The notes beneath the pieces were generated by a model. It was not told the origin of the DNA and did not search any database. It worked only from the letters and a program-made list of their open reading frames with translations. From contig QHRJ01000038.1 of the NCBI GenBank assembly GCA_003220075.1, forward strand, positions 1 through 37,073: a DNA stretch of 37,073 bases. The letters are read 5' to 3'. Both the position numbers and the translations under genes were made by a program. This document shows positions 6,178 through 30,989 of the stretch, piece after piece. Positions within the stretch are counted from its first letter, which is position 1. Every line of letters starts with the position of its first letter. Source of the stretch: Verrucomicrobiota bacterium (GTDB lineage: Bacteria > Verrucomicrobiota > Verrucomicrobiia > Chthoniobacterales > UBA10450).

Positions 6178-6241
6178 GAGAGGAACTTCTTTTATAAAAC
6201 AAACAGCACAATTTGGGCAACAGTTGTCCCGTACTCTTTGG

Positions 6242-6284
6242 TATCCCGAGCTACGTCGAGGGATCCCGTTGCGCTACCTTAAAG
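6242..6284. repeat. Family A palindromic repeat, copy A1 (half element)
   Basis: TATCCCGAGCTACGTCGAGG, then GATCCCGTTGCGCTACCTTA and AAG: one arm and the central CTACCTTAAAG of the family A element, without the second arm. It lies in the 3' region of rpmA, 7 nt from its stop codon. The same arm and centre are seen complete at 30061-30141. Confidence 0.75.
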
Positions 6285-6291
6285 GTTATTC

Positions 6292-9680: not shown

Positions 9681-12600
9681 CTATTGCGGCGGCCAGAGAA
9701 ATTCGGCCCGATATTCGGGCGTGGCTTCCGGGGCGAAGCCGTGACGCATGATGTTTTCGGTGACAACGCGTGGGACGAGGAAGTTGAGCAGGTAATCGCT
9801 GCCGCCGGCTTTGGTTCCGCCGCCGCTCATTTTGAATCCGCCAAAAGGATGGCGGCCGACCACCGCGCCAGTGCAGGAGCGATTGACATAAACATTCCCG
9901 GCTACGAGCTCGGCTTTGATCCGCTCGATGTTAGCGGGACTGCGCGAGAAGAATCCGGCGGTGAGCGCGTAATCGGTATCGTTGGCAATTCTGATCGCGT
10001 CGTCCAGATCGCGCGCTTTCAACACACTCAACACCGGTCCGAAAATTTCACACTGGCTTAAGGTCATTTCCGGTCTTACGCCGGTAAAAATGGTGGGCGG
10101 AATGAAATAGCCTTTTTCCGGTATGTTGGTCGCCTGGAAAGCGAGACTCGCTTCGGTTTTGCCGCGCTCGATAATTTCCTGGATGCGGCGATAGGCGGTC
10201 TTGTCGATGACGGGACCAACAGTAATTCCCGGTTCCTCTGGATTGCCAACGCGCAAACTGGCAGCGGCGGCAAGCAACCGCTGCATCACGCGCTCGTAAT
10301 TTTCTTCGAGCACAATCAGACGCGAACAGGCGGAACATTTTTGTCCCTGATAACCAAAAGCGGAATAGATCGTGTCCACGATCGTTTCGTCGAGATCGGC
10401 ATCGGAATCGACGATGACTGCGTTCTTGCCGCCCATCTCACAGACGACGCGCTTAAGTTCGCGCTGGCCCGGCCGCGTTTTTCCCGCCGACTCCCATATT
10501 CGGAGGCCTACTTCACGCGAGCCGGTGAACGCGATCATTTCCACATCGGGATGATCGACCAGGTAGGCGCCAATGACGGAACCGCGGCCGTGCAGGCAAT
10601 TCAGGACGCCCGGTGGAACTCCGGCTTCCTCGAAAATTTCCATGAGGAGCGCGCCAAGGATCGCTGAAGGCTCGGCCGGTTTCATGATCACGGTATTGCC
10701 GGTGACGAGCGCGGCGGTAACCATTCCGCAGAGAATCGCGACCGGAAAATTCCATGGCGCGATGACGAGGGCTACGCCACGCGGCCAATAGTGCTGGTAA
10801 CTTTCCTCGCCGGGGACATGTTGGGTCAGACGCGGATTTCCGCGCAGCCGCATTTGGTGCGCGTAGAACAGACAAAAATCCATCGCTTCTCGGATGTCCC
10901 CGTCGGCTTCGGCCCAGGCTTTGCCGACCTCGAACACTTCGACCGCGGAAAGCTCAAACCGGCGACGATCGAGGATCGCCGCCACGCGCTCGAGTAACTG
11001 GCAGCGTCCTTCGAAGGGCGTGCGGCTCCACGATTCAAACGCACGCCGCGCCGCTTTCGCCGCGCTCTCGGCTTCGGGAATCCCAGCCTCGGCAATCAAA
11101 CCAACGATTTGATCTGGCGCGCTCGGATTGAGCGACGGCAGCAATTTGTCGGTCCAAACTTCTTTGCCATCGATGACGAGCGGGTGCTTCTGTCCGAAGC
11201 GCGCACGCACTTTGCGCAAAGCTGTCCGCATTTTTTCCTGGGATTCGGGATAAACAAAATTTGTCAGCGACGCATTTTTGTACGTGCCGCCCGGCGGCAC
11301 GTCTGCGGTGGCGCCGTTACGGCCCGCTCCGTCATCCCGAGCGAAGTCGAGGGATCTCGCGGCGGAAGCTTTAAGATAAGTTCCTCGGAATCCCTCGACT
11401 TCGCTCGGGATCGCGGTCGAAGGCGGATTCTCGCCGTTCACCAGATCGCGTGGATCGCGTAGCAATTGCGCTGCTGAAACATGCTCGGAGAACTTCGCGC
11501 GCAAGAATCCTTCATTAGAGGTATTTTCAAGGAGACGACGCACCAGATACGACATCCCGGGCAACAGTTCGCCGACTGGCGAATATTCGCGTACCCGATA
11601 GCCCATCTCGACCAGTGCGCGCTTGATCGGCCCGGCCATTCCGTAGAGCAACTGAAATTCGAAACGACTGCGATCGATCCCGAGCTCTTCCGCCAACGCC
11701 TGCGCATGCGCGATGCTACGGACATTGTGGGAACCGAACGCGGAAGTCACGATCGATTCGTTCTCGAGTAAAATACGGCTGAGCCGTTCGAAATTGGCAT
11801 CGCTCTCGGGCTTTTGCAGCCATACCGGAATGATCCAGCCGTTTTGGGTGGACTTAATTTTTTCGTAATCCCAATAGGCGCCTTTGACCAGACGAACAGT
11901 GAAACGTGTCCCGCGCGCTCGTCCCCATGCAATCAGATCATTCAAATCCTCTTCCGCATCGCGCAAGTAAGCTTGAATGACGATGCCGGCATGCGGCCAG
12001 TCGCGAAACTCTGGCTCGGTAAAGAGCGTTCGAAAAAGTTCGAGGGTCGCATTTTTGTGCGCGTAGCTTTCCATGTCGAAATTGATGAAAGCGCCGAGCT
12101 CTTTCGCGCGGCGTAAAATCGAGCGGAGCTTCGGCGCAAGATGCGCAATCGCGTCGGTCGGATCGGCCGGGTTCATCTGCGAATAGAGCGCAGAAATTTT
12201 TACCGACACATTTACGACTGGAAAGAGCTCGGAGTTTTTGCCGAGCGGATCGGTCCAGCCGCGCGTTTCCCGGCCGAGATGTTCGAGTAATTCCTGACAG
12301 CGCGCTGCATACTCGTTAGCTTCCTCTTCGCTGACGACTGCTTCGCCCAGCAGATCGACGGTGAATCCGATCTTTTGACGCCGCTTTTTGCGCAGCGTTT
12401 TCATTACGTCATCGGGGTTACGCCCGGCGATGAATTGCCGCGCCATCCCCGAGACGTTCCAGCGCAGGAATTTCCCGCTGATGATTGGGACGATGCGCGC
12501 AAGCGACACCCCGGTGCGGATGAGCGGGGCGAAACCATTGCGCATGTCGGCAAAATATTCGTCGAGATGTTGCACGATGTCGGAGCCGCGCCGGAGGGAA

Positions 12601-20733: not shown

Positions 20734-21528
20734 TTAGTTATAATTGGTAAATCGCAGCGCCACGCGTACGGCGGATAGCGGCAACGCGCGCGTAATCGCC
20801 ATGACGATTTTCATGGCAAGGCCCGGAATGATTAAAGCCTTGTCCTGCTCGACAGCGCTTAACCCTGCCTGTGCCACTTTTTCTACCGCCACGTGCATGA
20901 GACGGGAGCGAGGTTTTTCCGCGCGGGATTCCCGATTGGCCACTTCTGCAAATTCAGTATCGACCGGCCCCGGGCAGAGCGTGGTCACAGTAAGTCCGCA
21001 ACCCCGTGTTTCGGCGCGGATCGCTTCGGAAAAACTGGTAACGTAGGCTTTTGTGGCCGCGTAAGCCGCAATGCCCGGCAGCGGGAGAAATCCAGCGGAG
21101 GAACTCACGTTCAAAATTGCCCCCCGTTTTTGCGCGATCATCCGCGGCAGTAACGCGCGGGTCAGCGCGGTTAACGCCAGCACGTTCACCAGCACCTGCT
21201 CATTGACATGAATCGGATCGGCTGTGGCAAAGGAACCGTGATCGCCGACGCCGGCATTGTTGATCAGGAAATCGATTAGCTCGTTCCTAAGCACGGCAGC
21301 GAGTTGCATCGTCTGTTCGAGATTTGAAAGATCGGCCTCGCGGATGTCGACAAGCAACGCCGGATTCCTGGCGACTAATTCGGTACGCAACTGTTCGAGT
21401 CGATCGCGCCTTCTGGCGACAAGAACGAGAAGTTTCGCACGCGCAGCCAGTTGCCGCGCCAATTCGCGACCGATCCCAGCCGAAGCGCCGGTGATCACGG
21501 CAGAGCAATTATCGAGATTCATCGTCAT
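20734..21528 (-). CDS. Short-chain dehydrogenase/reductase (SDR)
   Basis: NAD(P)H-dependent oxidoreductase, classical SDR. The N-terminus has the Rossmann motif TGASAGIGREL, then the NNAGVGDHG strand and the catalytic set: Ser in LNVSSSAGF, Tyr and Lys in YAATK. The downstream CPGPVDTEF is also typical. From ATG 21528 it has 264 aa; ATG 21522 (MNLDNCSAV) is an alternative two codons in. An RxxR basic patch after the second strand (VARRRDRLEQL) suggests NADP preference. The ATG at 21528 belongs to the end of a family A repeat. The gene follows the pseudouridine synthase on the same strand, and the repeat forms the whole junction. Substrate unknown. Confidence 0.9.
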   Translation of the reverse strand: MTMNLDNCSAVITGASAGIGRELARQLAARAKLLVLVARRRDRLEQLRTELVARNPALLVDIREADLSNLEQTMQLAAVLRNELIDFLINNAGVGDHGSFATADPIHVNEQVLVNVLALTALTRALLPRMIAQKRGAILNVSSSAGFLPLPGIAAYAATKAYVTSFSEAIRAETRGCGLTVTTLCPGPVDTEFAEVANRESRAEKPRSRLMHVAVEKVAQAGLSAVEQDKALIIPGLAMKIVMAITRALPLSAVRVALRFTNYN

Positions 21529-21622
21529 TCCGAGCGAAAGTCGAGGAATCCCGTCGCGCAACCTTTAAGTTACTGCGGCGGGATCCCTCGATCTGAGCCG
21601 GACTGGGGTTTTGCTCGGGATA
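21525..21622. repeat. Family A palindromic repeat, copy A3 (complete, variant centre)
   Basis: Left arm TCATTCCGAGCGAAAGTCGA then GGAATCCCG; right part CGGGATCCCTCGATC and then GCTCGGGAT at the end, with a centre containing CAACCTTTAAGTTACTG. On the minus strand its beginning encodes the last residues of the pseudouridine synthase (VIPSKTPVRL, then RSRDPAAVT and TAA at 21565-21567), and its end gives the in-frame ATGA of the SDR gene. The right half (GAGCCGGACTGG..TTTTGCTCGGGAT) is the same subtype as copy A4. Confidence 0.85.
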
Positions 21623-22296
21623 ACGCGAACTTCTTGGGTGCTCAAGTGTCGCCATTTCCCGCGCGGAAGATCATGCAGTCTTAAATTGCCCATTCGGACT
21701 CGCGTCAATTTTTTCGCGTGAAATCCGAAGCACGCAAGCATGCGCCGGATCTGCCGATTGATTCCCTGTTCGAGCATAATGCAGAGTCGCGTGGGCGAAA
21801 TTTGCTGCACGCGTTTAGCACGGGCGCGTTTCCCATCGAGAACAACGCCGCGCAAAAGTTTCTGCGCTAAATCCGGCGTAGCGGCGCGGTCGAGCACTAC
21901 TTGATATTCCTTTTTGATCTTGAACCGCGGATGTGTCAGGCGCTGCGCAAAGTTGCCGTCGTTCGTGAGTAACAGCAAACCTTCACTCTGAGCGTCGAGC
22001 CGACCGACGTAGGCGAGCGAAGAAAATTTCGGCGGCAGCAAATCGTAAATCGTATCGGTCGTGTTTGAATCTCGCCGGGTGCAGACGAAGCCAGCCGGTT
22101 TGTTGAGCAAAATGTAAACAGGCGTTCGTTGATGAACGAACTTGCCATCAACTTTGACGTAATCGGTTGGTGCGGGCTGGAAATGAAAATCCCGACACGG
22201 TTTTCCATTCACAGTCACACGACCGGACTTAATCAATTCGTCCGCGCCCCGACGTGAGGTGACGCCGGCAGCAGCGAGAAAGCGGTTTAAGCGCAA
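21565..22296 (-). CDS. RsuA/RluB-family rRNA pseudouridine synthase
   Basis: Converts a specific rRNA uridine to pseudouridine. The 243-aa protein has an N-terminal S4 RNA-binding domain (MRLNRFLAAAGVTSRRGADE, then SGRVTVNG), then ILLNKPAGFVCTRRD, and the catalytic Asp in VGRLDAQSEGLLLLTNDG. GINRQIRRMLACFGFHAKKL near the C-terminus is also diagnostic. The start is TTG 22296; no in-frame ATG exists before the S4 domain. The last 19 or so residues (VIPSKTPVRLR, then SRDPAAVT) are translated from a family A repeat, so the natural C-terminus was replaced or extended. The target could be 23S or 16S rRNA; the exact member (RluB, RluE, RluF, RsuA) is not decidable. Confidence 0.9.
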   Translation of the reverse strand: MRLNRFLAAAGVTSRRGADELIKSGRVTVNGKPCRDFHFQPAPTDYVKVDGKFVHQRTPVYILLNKPAGFVCTRRDSNTTDTIYDLLPPKFSSLAYVGRLDAQSEGLLLLTNDGNFAQRLTHPRFKIKKEYQVVLDRAATPDLAQKLLRGVVLDGKRARAKRVQQISPTRLCIMLEQGINRQIRRMLACFGFHAKKLTRVRMGNLRLHDLPRGKWRHLSTQEVRVIPSKTPVRLRSRDPAAVT

Positions 22297-24421: not shown

Positions 24422-24853
24422 TTAGTGAGCGTCCACCGCCGCTGCACGATATCGATCCCAACTGTCGGGCAAGCGCAGCAATTTTGCCGACGGCATTTGA
24501 ATCAACGCCAGCGTCTGGCAGCACTCGGCGATTAGGGCATCGTCTGCGTTCCGCACGATCCGAAAAGCGCACCAAAATCGCACGCGTTCGAGTTGATCGA
24601 GCCAACCTTCAATCGTGAGACGGTCGCCCAGTTTGGCGGCGCGGCGGTAGTCGATCTCCGTCCGGACGACGACGGGATACTTTTGGGTCGCCGCCATTTC
24701 CGACAAGGTGAGTCCGAGTTGCTCGGCCAGGAGAGTGCGGGCGATCTCGATGAAGCGCAGATAAGCGATGTTATGGACGACACCACCGCAGTCGGTATCG
24801 AAAAACATCACCTGCACTTCAGTGCGGATGCGGGGCGCGCCGGGTACCGTCAT
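24422..24853 (-). CDS. YbgC-like acyl-CoA thioesterase (hot-dog fold)
   Basis: Cytoplasmic or membrane-associated acyl thioesterase of the 4HBT family, 143 aa. The active-site motif is VMFFDTDCGGVVHNIAYLRF, matching the YbgC pattern DTD.GGVVY...Y. The rest follows the fold: TEIDYRRAAKLGDRLTIEGW and FRIVRNADDALIAECCQTLA. The ATG overlaps the TGA of the LpxL-WaaF gene in an ATGA (24850-24853), and its own stop is 1 nt before the GT39 start, so all three are one tightly coupled operon. YbgC usually sits with tolQRAB; here it stands with lipid A genes, so a role in acyl supply or membrane lipid turnover is plausible. Confidence 0.88.
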   Translation of the reverse strand: MTVPGAPRIRTEVQVMFFDTDCGGVVHNIAYLRFIEIARTLLAEQLGLTLSEMAATQKYPVVVRTEIDYRRAAKLGDRLTIEGWLDQLERVRFWCAFRIVRNADDALIAECCQTLALIQMPSAKLLRLPDSWDRYRAAAVDAH

Positions 24854-26796
24854 ACCGACGTATGATTTCCAAATGCGGCCGCGAAAGCAACGTTACCCGA
24901 TTTCGTCCCTTCAACCTGTCCCGAAATCATTTGTTGAATGGCGGCAACGACTTCCGCGCTCGTGACCGCGTGCATGCAGCGGAAATCGAGAGGGCATTCA
25001 CGGAGAAAACAGGGGCTGCACTCGACATGATGCCGAAAAATGCGATGGCCCCGGCCGAGCGGGCCGGTCCGCAACGGTTCGGTCGATCCGAAAATCGAGA
25101 TCGTAGGCACCTGCAACAGGGCCGCGAGATGCATTGTTCCGGTATCGTTAGTAAGCAACAGATCACAATAGCGTAGCTCATCGATCAATTCTTCGAGCGT
25201 CGTCTGGCCGATGCGATTCAAACACTTCTCACCCAGCGCTGCTGCAATTTCGAAGCCGACTGCGGCATCGCCAGCAGTACCGAAGAGAACCCATTGCACC
25301 GGAAAGCGCGACGCGATTTCCTGCGCCACTTCCGTGAAACGTGGCCATCGCTTCGCCGGGCCATACTCCGCCCCGGGACAAAGGCCGAGTTTGAGTTGAT
25401 CGTGACGACCTTTAATCGAATTAGCCGCAGGAAATTGCGGCTTCACTATCGCCCCGATCATGCTCGCCAATTCGAGATACTTGTAGGTTTGATGAACGAT
25501 GCCACGGGAGAAGGTCTCCCGGGGTCGTTGGTTTAGCAGCCAGCGGCGCCAATGCCCAGTTAAACCAACGCGCCGCGGGATGCGCGCCAGAAAGATTTCG
25601 AGGGCGCTGCGCAGCGAATTCGGAAACAGGATCGCGGCATCGAACGGCCGTTTTTGACGAAACAATCGCGCCGCCGCCAAAACCGATTTTGACGGCAGAA
25701 CGATAATATCATCGGCCTCTGGAACAATTCTCCAGAGGGCCGCAAGTTTTCCCGGGGCGGCCACGGTCACGTGTAGGTCTGGGCGCCCACCTTTGATGGC
25801 GCGCACGGCCGGCACGCTCATAACGGCGTCGCCCAGCCAACTGCTGCCCCGAATCAAAATGCGAAATGGCTTTAGCCTGGTGTTCTCCGGCAAAAAGATA
25901 CCGCGCTTGTATTTCGCGAGCAGAAAATTTGGCCGCGGCGTTTTCCAGCGATTATGTACCCAAAACCAATCTTCCGGCGCACGTCGGACTTGTTCTTCCA
26001 AGATTTCGTTCCCGCGCGCGGTTAGCTTTTCGATTGATTCGCTGGTGCCGTCGATTGGCGTTTCCGCCACCGCGCGCCAGCGCGCGAAGCCTTCGGTGTG
26101 AACGGCAAATCCGATCAGCTTGGCGTGCGTTCGCCGCGCCAGCAGCGCCGGTAATGGTGTGGTGGAAGCGAGCCTGCCAAAGCACGGCGTCCAGAGGCCG
26201 CCGTCGCCGGCGTGTTGATCGATGAGAATACCGATGGCGCCGCCGCTTCGCAGCAGCTCAATCACTTTGCCGAAACCTTCGCTCCGCTCAAAGACCTCGA
26301 GGCCAAATCGGCTGCGTGCCTCCCGAACGTGTCGATCGATATGCGGATTGCGGATGCGTTGGTAAACAGTCGCGGTCCGTTGTCCGTGCGCGAAATGCGG
26401 GAACAGTTGGCTGCAAAACTCCCAGGAACCGATGTGACTCAGGCACAGGACGAACGGCTGCTTTTGCAGGAAACAATTTTCGACATCCTCGAAGTTTTCC
26501 AGGCGCACGCGCTCCAGGATCTTTTCCATCGGCATGCGGGTGAACTTCACGCTGCAGAGCAGGTTCGCTCCTAGCCATTGAAAATGCCGGCGCACGACCC
26601 GGCGCATCTGTTTTTCGGAAAGCTCCTCGCCGAAAGCGATGCGTACATTGCGCAGAGCCAGCTTGCGGTAGTGCGGCAGCGCTAGCCACCCAATGGCGCC
26701 GCCGATTTGCCCAATCGCGAATATCAAGGGCAGTGGCAACAAGGTGAGCAAGTCCGTTCCGGTCCGGTAAAAAAGATAAACAACGTAATCGAACAT
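24850..26796 (-). CDS. Fusion of LpxL-like lipid A acyltransferase and WaaF-like heptosyltransferase
   Basis: A single 648-aa chain with two lipopolysaccharide enzymes. Residues 1-300 are an LpxL/HtrB-type late acyltransferase: an N-terminal membrane helix, then the HX4E catalytic motif in LSHIGSWEF (His121, Glu126), GILIDQHAGDGG and the closing WFWVHNRWKTPRP (His281). Residues 311-630 are a GT9 transferase like heptosyltransferase II: FRILIRGSSWLGDAVMSVPA at the start, LGLCPGAEYGPAKRWP, then TNDTGTMHLAALLQVPT and FGSTEPLRTGP, with the Cys cluster ECSPCFLRECPLDFRCM. No stop or frame change separates them. The first gene of the envelope operon; divergent from the GT2 gene with a 59-nt spacer. 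Whether heptose is the real donor sugar is unproven. Confidence 0.92.
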   Translation of the reverse strand: MFDYVVYLFYRTGTDLLTLLPLPLIFAIGQIGGAIGWLALPHYRKLALRNVRIAFGEELSEKQMRRVVRRHFQWLGANLLCSVKFTRMPMEKILERVRLENFEDVENCFLQKQPFVLCLSHIGSWEFCSQLFPHFAHGQRTATVYQRIRNPHIDRHVREARSRFGLEVFERSEGFGKVIELLRSGGAIGILIDQHAGDGGLWTPCFGRLASTTPLPALLARRTHAKLIGFAVHTEGFARWRAVAETPIDGTSESIEKLTARGNEILEEQVRRAPEDWFWVHNRWKTPRPNFLLAKYKRGIFLPENTRLKPFRILIRGSSWLGDAVMSVPAVRAIKGGRPDLHVTVAAPGKLAALWRIVPEADDIIVLPSKSVLAAARLFRQKRPFDAAILFPNSLRSALEIFLARIPRRVGLTGHWRRWLLNQRPRETFSRGIVHQTYKYLELASMIGAIVKPQFPAANSIKGRHDQLKLGLCPGAEYGPAKRWPRFTEVAQEIASRFPVQWVLFGTAGDAAVGFEIAAALGEKCLNRIGQTTLEELIDELRYCDLLLTNDTGTMHLAALLQVPTISIFGSTEPLRTGPLGRGHRIFRHHVECSPCFLRECPLDFRCMHAVTSAEVVAAIQQMISGQVEGTKSGNVAFAAAFGNHTSV

Positions 26797-26855: not shown

Positions 26856-28598
26856 GTGAAGGACGACGAACTGCGAGCAGCTGAAGCGCACATCGCACGG
26901 CTGGAGGAAGAGCTGTTGCGTCTGAAAGATGTGAAGCGCGACCTCCAAAGATTGCGCGAGGAACATCGTCGATTACGCCACAGCACCGAAGGGCGCATCG
27001 CAAAAATTCTTTCCGCGCCGTTCCGGTTATTCCGGCGGCGGCAATTAACTGAGGCCGTCGAGCAAGATGAATACGGCCGCTGGTTTGCACGGCATCGCGT
27101 TTCCGCGGAAGAAGCGGCGAAACTGCGCGAGCAATCGCGAACGTTCTCTTATCGGCCACTCATTTCGATTTTGACACCAACGTTTAATCCGGATGACCAA
27201 TTCTTGACGGCGGCGGTCGAATCGGTCATTGCGCAGGCCTACGAGAATTGGGAGCTAGTTTTAATTGATGATGGCTCGAGTGACCCCCGCGTGCGCGGCC
27301 TGCTAGAAAAGCTGGGACAACGTGATGCCCGCATTCAAACCGGCTTTCAGGAGCACGGTGGGATTTCCTCAGCCTTAAACGCGGCGCTCTCCCGCGCGCG
27401 CGGAGAATGGGTGGTGCTGCTCGACCACGACGATTTACTCGAACCGGACGCGTTGTTTCGCGCAATCGAGCTTTTGCAAAACGACCGGGAAGCCGATGTG
27501 ATTTATTCCGACGAAGACAAAATTGTGGACGGGAAATTAGCGGCGCCGATGCTAAAACCGGATTGGTCGCCGGAATTTTTTTGCACACACGATTACCTGG
27601 GACATTTCGTGGTCATACGGCGCGATCTGGCGCAGGCCGGATTTCGCAGCGAGTTCGACGGGGCGCAGGATTACGATTTGCTCCTGCGCATATCGGAAAA
27701 AACGGACCGGATCCGGCATCTCCCGCGAGTGCTTTATCATTGGCGGCGAACGGCCGAATCGACCGCGCACAACATCCGGCGTAAACCGGGCGCGCTGGAA
27801 GCGGGACGGCGCGGCATTGAAGAGCACTTGGCGCGGCGGCAGGAAAATGCGCGGGTGACAATTGATTGGGAGACGCATCTCTACCGCGTTCGGCGGCAAA
27901 TCGCCGCCGAGAAGATTTCGATCATTATCAATGGGTCTGCTGGCGATGCCGATCGAATTCGCGCGAACACGGATTTTCCGAATTTCGAAATCGTTGCAAA
28001 TCTCAAGGAAGCGACCGGCGAATACGTGCTATTTCTCGATTCCGACCTTGAGCCGCTTAACGAGAATTGGTTGAGCGTGATGGCTGAGCAACTGTCGAAT
28101 CCGAAGATTGGTGCCGTCGGCGCGCGCGTCGTTTCGACGGAGGGCACAGTTGAAAGCGCTGGATTGATTTTATCTCCGGATGGCAAGGTGAATTCAGCCT
28201 TCGCCGGACTCGCGCGGAATTTTCGTGGCGCAAATCGACAATTGCAGACGGCGCGGAATTACAGCGCGGTGAGCGCGTCGTGCTTGCTAACGCGGCGGGA
28301 ATTGTTGCATCGAACGCTGCCAGGTAACGCGGCGGGATCCCTCGCTCCGAGCCGGAGTGGTATTTTCGCTCGGGATGACCGGATTTGGGTTGGGACCGAG
28401 TATTGTTTGAGACTACGCGAACAAGGATTGCGAACAGTTTCGATTCCATATGCGGAATTGCGTCGCACTTCGAAAAAGGAAAATGCGAGCGTATTGTGTG
28501 TGGATTTGCAGAAACGCTGGCCCGAAATGTTTCGACGCGATCCTTATTATAATCCAAATCTTTCTAGCGAGCGGATCGATTTCTCGCTAAGGACGTAG
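26856..28598 (+). CDS. Two-domain GT2 glycosyltransferase with degraded second domain
   Basis: Probable O-antigen/capsule-type transferase, 580 aa from GTG 26856; the frame is open to TTG 26820. Residues 1-80 form a coiled coil (DDELRAAEAHIARLEEELLR). The first GT-A domain (about 95-330) is intact: LISILTPTFNPDDQFL, LVLIDDGSSD, the metal motif LLDHDDLLEPD, VIYSDEDK, then GAQDYDLLLR and LPRVLYHWR. The second domain (about 350-560) is damaged: after TDFPNFEIV about 30 residues expected in the family are missing, and where the usual GGFDE..FNDVD should be there is a translated palindromic repeat (LPGNAAGSLAPSRSGIFARD). EYCLRLREQGLRTVSIPYAE then resumes the family pattern. Only the first domain is likely to be catalytic. 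Confidence 0.87.
   Translation: MKDDELRAAEAHIARLEEELLRLKDVKRDLQRLREEHRRLRHSTEGRIAKILSAPFRLFRRRQLTEAVEQDEYGRWFARHRVSAEEAAKLREQSRTFSYRPLISILTPTFNPDDQFLTAAVESVIAQAYENWELVLIDDGSSDPRVRGLLEKLGQRDARIQTGFQEHGGISSALNAALSRARGEWVVLLDHDDLLEPDALFRAIELLQNDREADVIYSDEDKIVDGKLAAPMLKPDWSPEFFCTHDYLGHFVVIRRDLAQAGFRSEFDGAQDYDLLLRISEKTDRIRHLPRVLYHWRRTAESTAHNIRRKPGALEAGRRGIEEHLARRQENARVTIDWETHLYRVRRQIAAEKISIIINGSAGDADRIRANTDFPNFEIVANLKEATGEYVLFLDSDLEPLNENWLSVMAEQLSNPKIGAVGARVVSTEGTVESAGLILSPDGKVNSAFAGLARNFRGANRQLQTARNYSAVSASCLLTRRELLHRTLPGNAAGSLAPSRSGIFARDDRIWVGTEYCLRLREQGLRTVSIPYAELRRTSKKENASVLCVDLQKRWPEMFRRDPYYNPNLSSERIDFSLRT
28324..28378. repeat. Family A palindromic repeat, copy A4 (partial), in frame in GT2
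   Basis: GTAACGCGGCGGGATCCCTC, GCTCCGAGCCGGAGTGGTAT and TTTCGCTCGGGATGA: the right half of the element, same subtype as the right half of copy A3. It does not break the GT2 frame and encodes about residues 490-508 of the protein. Confidence 0.8.
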
Positions 28599-29370: not shown

Positions 29371-30075
29371 GTGAAGCGGCAGTTCGATCCGGCGCTGCCG
29401 GAATTGATGGACCGGCCCCAGCCGGTCACGCCAGAGCTGGAACGCGACCTGGCCAATCTGCGCTCGCTCAATCGCTGGTTCGGCAGCCACCGAATAATGC
29501 GACATTTTTTGCGACGCTGGCTCAGACCAAATGGGAAAGCGCGCATCCTGGACGTTGCGACAGCCTCAGGCGACATCCCACGCCTGATCGTCGATCATGC
29601 GCGAGGGCAAAATGTTTCCGTTCACATCGACGCGATCGATCAGCAGGAATCGACCATCGAAATTGCGCGACGACTGAGCGCTGCTTATCCGGAGATCGAT
29701 TTCATTTGCGCGGATCTGTTCGAATGGAATCCGTCTGAGCTTTACGACATCGTGCTTTGTTCGCTCACCCTTCACCATTTCAGCAACAATGACGCTGTGC
29801 GCGTCCTGCAAAAAATTCGCGAGCTCTCGACGACGCGAATTTTAGTTGCCGATTTGCGAAGGGCACGCTGGGTGAGGTTCGCGGTTTATTTTGTGACGGC
29901 GACAATCTATCGCGCTGCGATGACGAAAACTGATGCACGACTATCAGCAGCGCGTGCGTTCAGTTTCGTTGAATTGCGCGAGTTGGCTAAGCGCGCCGGC
30001 TGGAAAAATTTCGGCCACCAAAAATTTGCCGTTGGTCGCCAAGCGATTTGGATCGAATTGTCATCCCGAGCATAG
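29371..30075 (+). CDS. Class I SAM-dependent methyltransferase
   Basis: A 234-aa methyltransferase with GTG start directly after the cupin TAA. The SAM-binding motif I is ARILDVATASGDIPRLI, the acidic strand 2 end is IDAIDQQEST, motif II is YDIVLCSLTLHHFSNND, and motif III is RILVADLRRARW. A helical C-terminal part (AVYFVTATIYRAAMTKTDAR) follows. Pattern and spacing recall UbiE-like small-molecule methyltransferases. Its last residues SSRA and the TAG stop are encoded by the beginning of a family A repeat, so the original C-terminus was probably a little different. The substrate is unknown; neighbours are a sugar-epimerase-like gene and panC. Confidence 0.87.
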   Translation: MKRQFDPALPELMDRPQPVTPELERDLANLRSLNRWFGSHRIMRHFLRRWLRPNGKARILDVATASGDIPRLIVDHARGQNVSVHIDAIDQQESTIEIARRLSAAYPEIDFICADLFEWNPSELYDIVLCSLTLHHFSNNDAVRVLQKIRELSTTRILVADLRRARWVRFAVYFVTATIYRAAMTKTDARLSAARAFSFVELRELAKRAGWKNFGHQKFAVGRQAIWIELSSRA

Positions 30076-30141
30076 TCGAGGGATCCCGCTGCGTTACCTT
30101 AAAGATTCCATCACGGGATCCCTTGACTGCGCTCGGGATGA
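30061..30141. repeat. Family A palindromic repeat, copy A5 (complete), at an operon junction
   Basis: Left arm TCATCCCGAGCATAGTCGAG then GGATCCCG; right arm CGGGATCCCTTGACTGCGCT then CGGGATGA. The two arms are inverted copies with few mismatches, around a centre CTGCGTTACCTTAAAGATTC. The left end gives the SSRA tail and TAG stop of the methyltransferase; the right end gives the ATGA at 30138 used as the panC start. Confidence 0.9.
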
Positions 30142-30989
30142 TCGACTCTCCAGTGAAAATCATCGAGACAGCGGATGCGGCCCAGGCACATGTGCGCGAA
30201 CGAGCGGCCAAATCCGTGCTCGTGCCGACGATGGGTGCGTTGCATCGTGGACATCTGGAGTTGATTCGTGTCGCGCGTGAGCACGCTGGAAAAGATGGGG
30301 AAGTTGCGGTCAGTATTTTCGTTAATCCGTTGCAGTTCGAGCCGGGCTCGGATTTTGGGAAATACCCGCGGCCGGAACCTATGGACGAAAAATTTTGCGC
30401 TGACGCAGGAGTCAATCTGCTCTTTCGCCCGCGCGAACTGTATTTCGACGATCGCTCGGTTTATGTCGAAGAGACGCGTTTGTCGGCGGGGCTTTGCGGC
30501 GCAGCGCGGCCGGGACATTTCCGCGGCGTCTGTACGGTGGTAGCAAAGCTTTTTAATTTGCTCGCGCCCGACGCCGCGGTGTTCGGTGAAAAGGATTATC
30601 AGCAACTGGCGATCATCCGGCGCATGGTGCGCGACCTGAATTTTCTGATCGAAATCATCGGCGTTTTGACGGTGCGTGAGGAGGACGGGCTGGCGCTGAG
30701 CTCACGCAATCAATACCTGGACGCGGAGGAGCGCGCCGCGGCGCCGATGCTGTATCAGGCCATGCTGCGGGCGAAAGAAATGGCCGCCGGCGGAGAAAAT
30801 TCTGTAAGCAAGTTGATCGACGCCGCCAAAAACGTAATCGCGTTAGCCAAGGGCGCGCGTATCGATTACATCAGCATCGTCGATGCTGAAAACTTGCAGC
30901 CACTGGAAAAACTGCGGCCGAACGCGCTCATTGCGCTCGCAGTTTTCATCGGCAAAACGCGATTGATCGATAACTTGCGATTGACGTGA
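30138..30989 (+). CDS. panC: Pantothenate synthetase
   Basis: Condenses pantoate and beta-alanine with ATP to pantothenate (vitamin B5/CoA pathway). The 283-aa protein has VLVPTMGALHRGHLELIRVA (HxGH motif), VSIFVNPLQFEPGSDFGKYP, FGEKDYQQLAIIRRMVRDL and EEDGLALSSRNQYL, all standard. Two starts compete: ATG 30138, which is the end of a family A repeat, and GTG 30153 (VKIIETADAA), which matches the usual N-terminus MKII better; neither has a Shine-Dalgarno. The 3' end overlaps nadB by 4 nt (GTGA), so both cofactor genes are co-translated. Confidence 0.96.
   Translation: MIDSPVKIIETADAAQAHVRERAAKSVLVPTMGALHRGHLELIRVAREHAGKDGEVAVSIFVNPLQFEPGSDFGKYPRPEPMDEKFCADAGVNLLFRPRELYFDDRSVYVEETRLSAGLCGAARPGHFRGVCTVVAKLFNLLAPDAAVFGEKDYQQLAIIRRMVRDLNFLIEIIGVLTVREEDGLALSSRNQYLDAEERAAAPMLYQAMLRAKEMAAGGENSVSKLIDAAKNVIALAKGARIDYISIVDAENLQPLEKLRPNALIALAVFIGKTRLIDNLRLT

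Follow-up and report, generated by a model that had tools for sequence, protein, structure and literature searches.

An arm of a genome-wide palindromic repeat lies in frame within the truncated second domain of a glycosyltransferase from soil Chthoniobacterales

A two-domain glycosyltransferase gene with an intact first domain

The window, by which we mean the whole stretch of 37,073 nucleotides analyzed here, carries on its forward strand a gene for a two-domain GT2-type glycosyltransferase (26856–28598; GTG start, stop codon included, 580 amino acids). Pfam matches and the predicted model place a coiled helix of about 67 residues at the N-terminus, ahead of two GT-A-type domains. The first domain (27153–27875, plus strand) matches PF00535 with an E-value of 4.4e-35 and carries DHDD (residues 190–193) and QDYD; with both the DXD-type and the catalytic aspartate motifs present, it belongs to the GT2/GT-A group, and the initial annotation was right to describe it as intact. 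LDHDD is found in 41 of 49 aligned rows, the window included, and Q-D-[YFH]-D in all of them. These rows are the window plus loci drawn from a set of 79, with L112, L113 and L115 left out as their second domain is incomplete.

The nearest relatives of the enzyme in GTDB come from Verrucomicrobia metagenome-assembled genomes (MAGs) of the AV series, among them L068 (QHPP01000094) with 93% protein identity, and farther relatives belong to Chthoniobacterales and Ca. Udaeobacter records. All genomes compared in this study are MAGs. A search of NCBIfam with the gene returned only matches below the cut-off. Within the first domain, at 27625–27660, two residues of the VGG that precedes FRSEFDGAQDYD are missing in all orthologs of the genus; relatives from other genera mostly retain VGGFR. 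Upstream, on the minus strand (24850–26796), a single open reading frame (ORF) seems to join a part resembling lipid A acyltransferases to one resembling heptosyltransferases, both named from reading the sequence.

The second domain is shortened and lacks both motifs throughout the genus

For the second domain (27894–28595, plus strand) a truncated GT-A-like fold is predicted, in which the nucleotide-binding half is missing. The loss begins after TDFPNFEIV, where some 33–36 residues, the stretch from VDNxS to NNxAV, are absent in comparison with full-domain relatives, close to the roughly 30 residues estimated initially; the junction lies at 27993–27998, around position 27995. PF00535 aligns with the window domain only from profile position 74 of 168, against positions 1–167 in L082, L083, L088 and L129. 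The columns of the VDNxS motif are empty, which leaves the domain without an N-terminal nucleotide-binding half, and the aspartate of NDVD, the catalytic one, has been replaced (WVGTE). Both motifs are gone in all eight genus rows, while 40 of the 41 rows from outside the genus retain the NDVD aspartate. Changed motifs in the second domain also occur in several rows of the family's other genera, such as L081, L084 and L102. The same part of the domain is shortened, with different borders and without any repeat, in L078 (G022) and L103 (G018), also from other genera, a sign that the family may have lost the nucleotide-binding half more than once. Judging from these motifs, the second domain has probably lost catalysis, and the sequence speaks against a second transferase activity of the kind found in K4CP-type bifunctional polymerases.

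Structure prediction of both domains and dN/dS of the second had been proposed initially as checks. The model of the first domain, a GT-A fold, fits chondroitin synthase K4CP (2z86_B; Z 25.9, rmsd 2.7, 253 aligned). Since no row of the whole-model structure comparison fitted the second domain alone, this domain was folded and searched separately, giving a mean pLDDT of 87.0, a pTM of 0.88 and a match to GalNAc-T2 (4d11_C; Z 13.8, rmsd 3.6, 197 aligned), as for a predicted GT-A-like fold. Among five close orthologs (L001, L009–L012), dN/dS is 0.09–0.16 in the first domain compared with 0.12–0.24 in the core of the second, 0.18–0.68 in its last part and 0.10–0.62 in the short stretch before its core, where one pair is saturated. 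The second domain is under purifying selection, and a pseudogene was ruled out, as the frame is open in all eight readable genus rows and selection on the domain is purifying. The view that the domain is eroded holds for its nucleotide-binding half and its NDVD aspartate, but not for the remainder, which keeps a predicted fold and is under selection. It has probably been retained as a non-catalytic module, to judge by sequence and model, with a role that we infer to be acceptor binding, packing or oligomer contact.

One arm of a repeat occupies the GGFD loop in frame

Where relatives carry the GGFDE..FNDVD block, the window reads LPGNAAGSLAPSRSGIFARDDRIWVGTEYC. This stretch contains one arm and part of the loop of a palindromic repeat in its long form (28322–28379, plus strand), translated in frame as GNAAGSLAPSRSGIFARDD (residues 490–508). 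The suggestion that a translated repeat had taken the place of GGFD was therefore correct as to position and frame; what is present is not the whole element. Positions 28334–28379 agree with the long-form arm with three mismatches. The long-form pattern matches the genome 24 times and its reversed control not once, and 28322–28366 is 82% identical to the window's own 21568–21612, so that the match is not due to chance.

Ordinary variation in loop length with a fortuitous likeness to the repeat would fit the fact that loops in this region vary across the family, and the window arm by itself folds no better than shuffled sequences (z -0.7). Besides the control counts, however, 30, 32 and 31 of 36 short-arm bases recur in L010, L011 and L012 at the same site and in the same frame, and we regard this explanation as almost certainly wrong.

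The insert is found in six of the eight genus genomes readable at the site; L013/L070 were left out of all site counts because the contig ends before the insert, and in the count of tree labels L070 was entered as ‘no insert’ even though it ends before the site. The six insert-bearing genomes hold 49–92 arm copies at up to two mismatches, compared with 0 and 1 in the two genomes without the insert, and G008, whose contig ends before the glycosyltransferase site, has 52. The arm is of the long form in L001 and L009 and of the short form in L010–L012. L016 has a diverged short arm in the same site and frame, matching at 23 of 36 bases (fraction about 6e-6 for the fixed site, 0.003 for the best match anywhere), which fits an old diverged copy. 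Between the window and L009 the arm differs as CTCCG/CGGAG versus GTCCG/CGGAC, with both sides changed together, and the window's variant is present in another genomic copy (C155:7076).

The shortening of the second domain does not depend on the repeat

The position of the repeat, in frame at the place of the relatives' GGFD, could suggest that its insertion destroyed an acceptor loop and left a formerly bifunctional enzyme with one domain, as the initial annotation proposed; relatives sharing the shortened domain without any repeat were to count against this. L072 and L073, which belong to the genus, are such relatives. They keep GGFD (read GGFDQ) and have no repeat, yet their second domain is shortened and has lost the NDVD aspartate. 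Because these two are equally decayed, the decay is independent of the repeat. The repeat as cause was rejected; it would require that L072 and L073 once carried the repeat and then lost it with GGFD restored, and the repeat-free shortening in L078 and L103 of other genera argues against it as well. We consider it very improbable. A change from a bifunctional enzyme to one with a single active domain may hold for the genus as judged by its motifs, but it would not be due to the repeat.

By parsimony, the decay of the second domain is probably older than the insert, on a branching order with weak support: the grouping of L016/L074 as sister to the core group has values of 74/57, and on the tree either L074 or L072/L073 may be the closer neighbor of that group. 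It could also be that a single old insertion was later lost in L072/L073, or that insertion took place twice.

The arm belongs to an abundant palindrome of about 85 nucleotides

In full, the element is a palindrome some 85 nt long that contains two 28-nt arms, with starts 47–57 nt apart. The genome holds 121 arm matches at up to three mismatches and the controls none; among the 85 elements merged from 100 listed arm matches of the 121, 15 have two arms. The long arm form measures 46 nt and differs from the short form by 18 nt.

Two complete two-arm palindromes are present in the window. One lies at 30058–30142 between a methyltransferase ORF and panC (-54.7 kcal/mol, z -9.8), and the other, the second copy folded, at 11329–11416 (-62.8 kcal/mol, z -8.4). 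A further copy at 21523–21630 combines one degenerate short arm with one long-form arm, and a one-arm copy with part of the loop is located at 6238–6287. The palindrome at 30058–30142 seems to provide the upstream ORF with its TAG stop (30073–30075), and also an ATG (30138–30140, MIDSPVKIIETADAAQ) that is a possible start of panC; a later GTG could equally serve.

The single-arm hairpin was considered as the functional unit and rejected, as the consensus arm has five contiguous pairs and a z of -0.10 and the window copy in the glycosyltransferase a z of -0.7. A CGTC terminus is present at 11329 and 21523 but not at 28379 or 30058 among four window copies. No arm was found in the fetched flanks of any of the eight Y1_Tnp loci examined (of 11 matches), and a pairing of REP and RAYT was rejected on this ground.

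The element is tolerated in frame in other conserved enzymes

The flanks of the repeat were read at 70 loci (two partly overlapping sets of 30 and 40), and 20 arm-holding ORFs were searched against Pfam. In seven of the 20 the element falls within the span of a single family (Aminotran_5, TsaD, LpxB, TGT, IPPT, AMP-binding and SQS_PSY), corresponding to seven in-frame host enzymes: cysteine desulfurase, TsaD, LpxB, MiaA, Tgt, an AMP-ligase and a squalene/phytoene synthase. It falls between two domain matches in three ORFs (UvrA-like, glyoxalase and Fe-S protein) and beside a domain in five, while the remaining five have no Pfam family. A long ORF (L052, G000:C104) has two UvrA-like parts with the palindrome in their linker.

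Five of these host genes were compared over 11 genomes of the genus, the in-frame copies being L049/L180 (G000:C77) in TsaD, L158 (C79) in LpxB, L179 (C64) in MiaA, L177 (C16) in Tgt and L038 (C3) in cysteine desulfurase. Cysteine desulfurase carries the element in five genomes (G000, G002, G004, G007 and G009) and has clean short sites in the other six. LpxB has an element-like insert in six of nine gene-bearing genomes, with none in G001, G005 and G006. The element has thus inserted in frame into unrelated conserved genes whose sites are empty in relatives. TsaD shows the element or a degenerate form in all eight genomes readable across the site, and hence no empty site; in G001 and G009 its sequence could not be followed beyond the site, and the gene was not found in G005. 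MiaA contains a clear element in G000, G007 and G006 with variable rows elsewhere, and Tgt in G000 only, with variable loops in the others. These two are less convincing than cysteine desulfurase, LpxB and TsaD, because the length of the site varies even where a species has no clear element.

Arm forms and frames change at fixed sites

Arm forms also differ between genomes at these orthologous sites. The left arm in TsaD is short in G000 and long in its sister genome G007, and the same is true of LpxB; in cysteine desulfurase the arms are long in G004 and G009 and short in G000, G002 and G007. The desulfurases of G000 and G007 (L249 versus L252) have the right half of the element in different frames, with the frame of the gene restored afterwards, so the peptide itself can hardly be constrained. 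Such changes of arm form would be explained by exchange between copies through recombination.

These frames bear on the alternative that the glycosyltransferase insert is a domesticated repeat, that is, a new peptide selected because it gives the second domain a new function. The insert has been kept in six genomes, including the distant L016 (62% protein identity), and in the stretch aligned with L016 five codons have changed by synonymous steps only. Against this, dN/dS of the insert is 0.42–2.13 among the same five close orthologs, a range that rests on just 19–25 codons and lies far above that of the first domain; the pLDDT of the insert blocks is low, at 62–64 in the whole-protein model; and sister species read the element of another gene in different frames. 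We consider domestication unlikely. The insert is evolving almost freely and is probably a tolerated loop, as sequence and model suggest.

At about even odds, the palindrome of these free-living soil Chthoniobacterales serves as an exchangeable in-frame peptide cassette at fixed sites of core enzymes (cysteine desulfurase, TsaD, LpxB and a glycosyltransferase), where the arm form, by 18 nt, or the frame is switched between species with the gene unbroken. If this holds, the genus would offer a natural series on what selects for frame-keeping of selfish DNA inside proteins.

A proposed history

Taken together, we favor with good confidence a history in which the second domain decayed in the ancestor of the genus to a non-catalytic module and later received, in frame, a tolerated arm of a genome-wide mobile palindrome. 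In that ancestor, the second domain of a two-domain GT2 enzyme would have shed both the nucleotide-binding half and the catalytic aspartate, to survive from then on as a partly relaxed module without catalysis. Later, the mobile palindrome, some 85 nt long and with over 100 arm matches genome-wide, would have placed one arm in frame in the GGFD loop, where it may have been tolerated since that loop was no longer part of an active site. Other conserved enzymes of the genome would tolerate the element in frame too, in loops of surface type, and at a fixed site recombination would presumably exchange its short arm form for the long one or the reverse, a difference of 18 nt.

The glycosyltransferase insert is one case of a genome-wide pattern and did not bring about the decay of the enzyme. 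In the enzyme itself, the second domain may have ceased to be catalytic before the repeat arrived, an order read from sequence comparison. Palindromes that insert in frame into conserved proteins are best known from Rickettsia, and they raise the questions of how such elements arrive, how the frame is preserved and how proteins tolerate them. With filled and empty sites in close species, and with arm forms that change, frame-keeping and tolerance become testable by comparison, and what makes the finding worth following is this range of sites across the genus, some filled, some empty and some exchanged. For annotation, strings like VIPSEVEGSR, GSLDFARDD or RDPST in Verrucomicrobiota proteins should be taken as read-through repeats and not as domains.

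Comparison with known systems

The kind of element described here is already known, from Rickettsia palindromic elements and from intragenic REPs. The family itself, in uncultivated soil Chthoniobacterales, did not turn up in searches with the letters of the arm and with words in literature other than subscription papers. Rickettsia palindromic elements (Ogata et al. 2000) are, in the parts of PMC2229807 and PMC10969869 drawn on here, in-frame palindromes in conserved protein genes. The present element resembles them as described there in lying in frame in unrelated conserved genes, where it is read as peptide and tolerated, and in forming one long stem-loop as a whole. It differs in its host, a soil Verrucomicrobiota lineage and not Rickettsiales, in its length of about 85 nt compared with the 105–146 bp given in the same part of PMC2229807, and in the short or long arm form at orthologous sites; the likeness stated here is one of description.

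CGTC- and GTAG-tagged REPs are many-copy palindromes that also occur within ORFs (Di Nocera et al. 2013, PMC3733652). In the sections of that survey considered here, intragenic GTAG repeats are most numerous in the Verrucomicrobium Opitutus terrae, where uvrA is a repeat target, and CGTC repeats are reported from five phyla that do not include Verrucomicrobia. Like the CGTC repeats of these sections, the window copies at 11329 and 21523 begin with CGTC and AT, but unlike them the arm does not form a stem of 8–9 bp with a loop of 4–5 nt. In contrast to REPs mobilized by RAYT, no tyrosine transposase adjoins the repeat at the eight fetched loci. The glycosyltransferase, for its part, shares with the GT2 polymerases chondroitin synthase K4CP and heparosan synthase PmHS2 an arrangement of two GT-A domains per chain, and differs from both in a second domain without the nucleotide-binding half and the catalytic aspartate.
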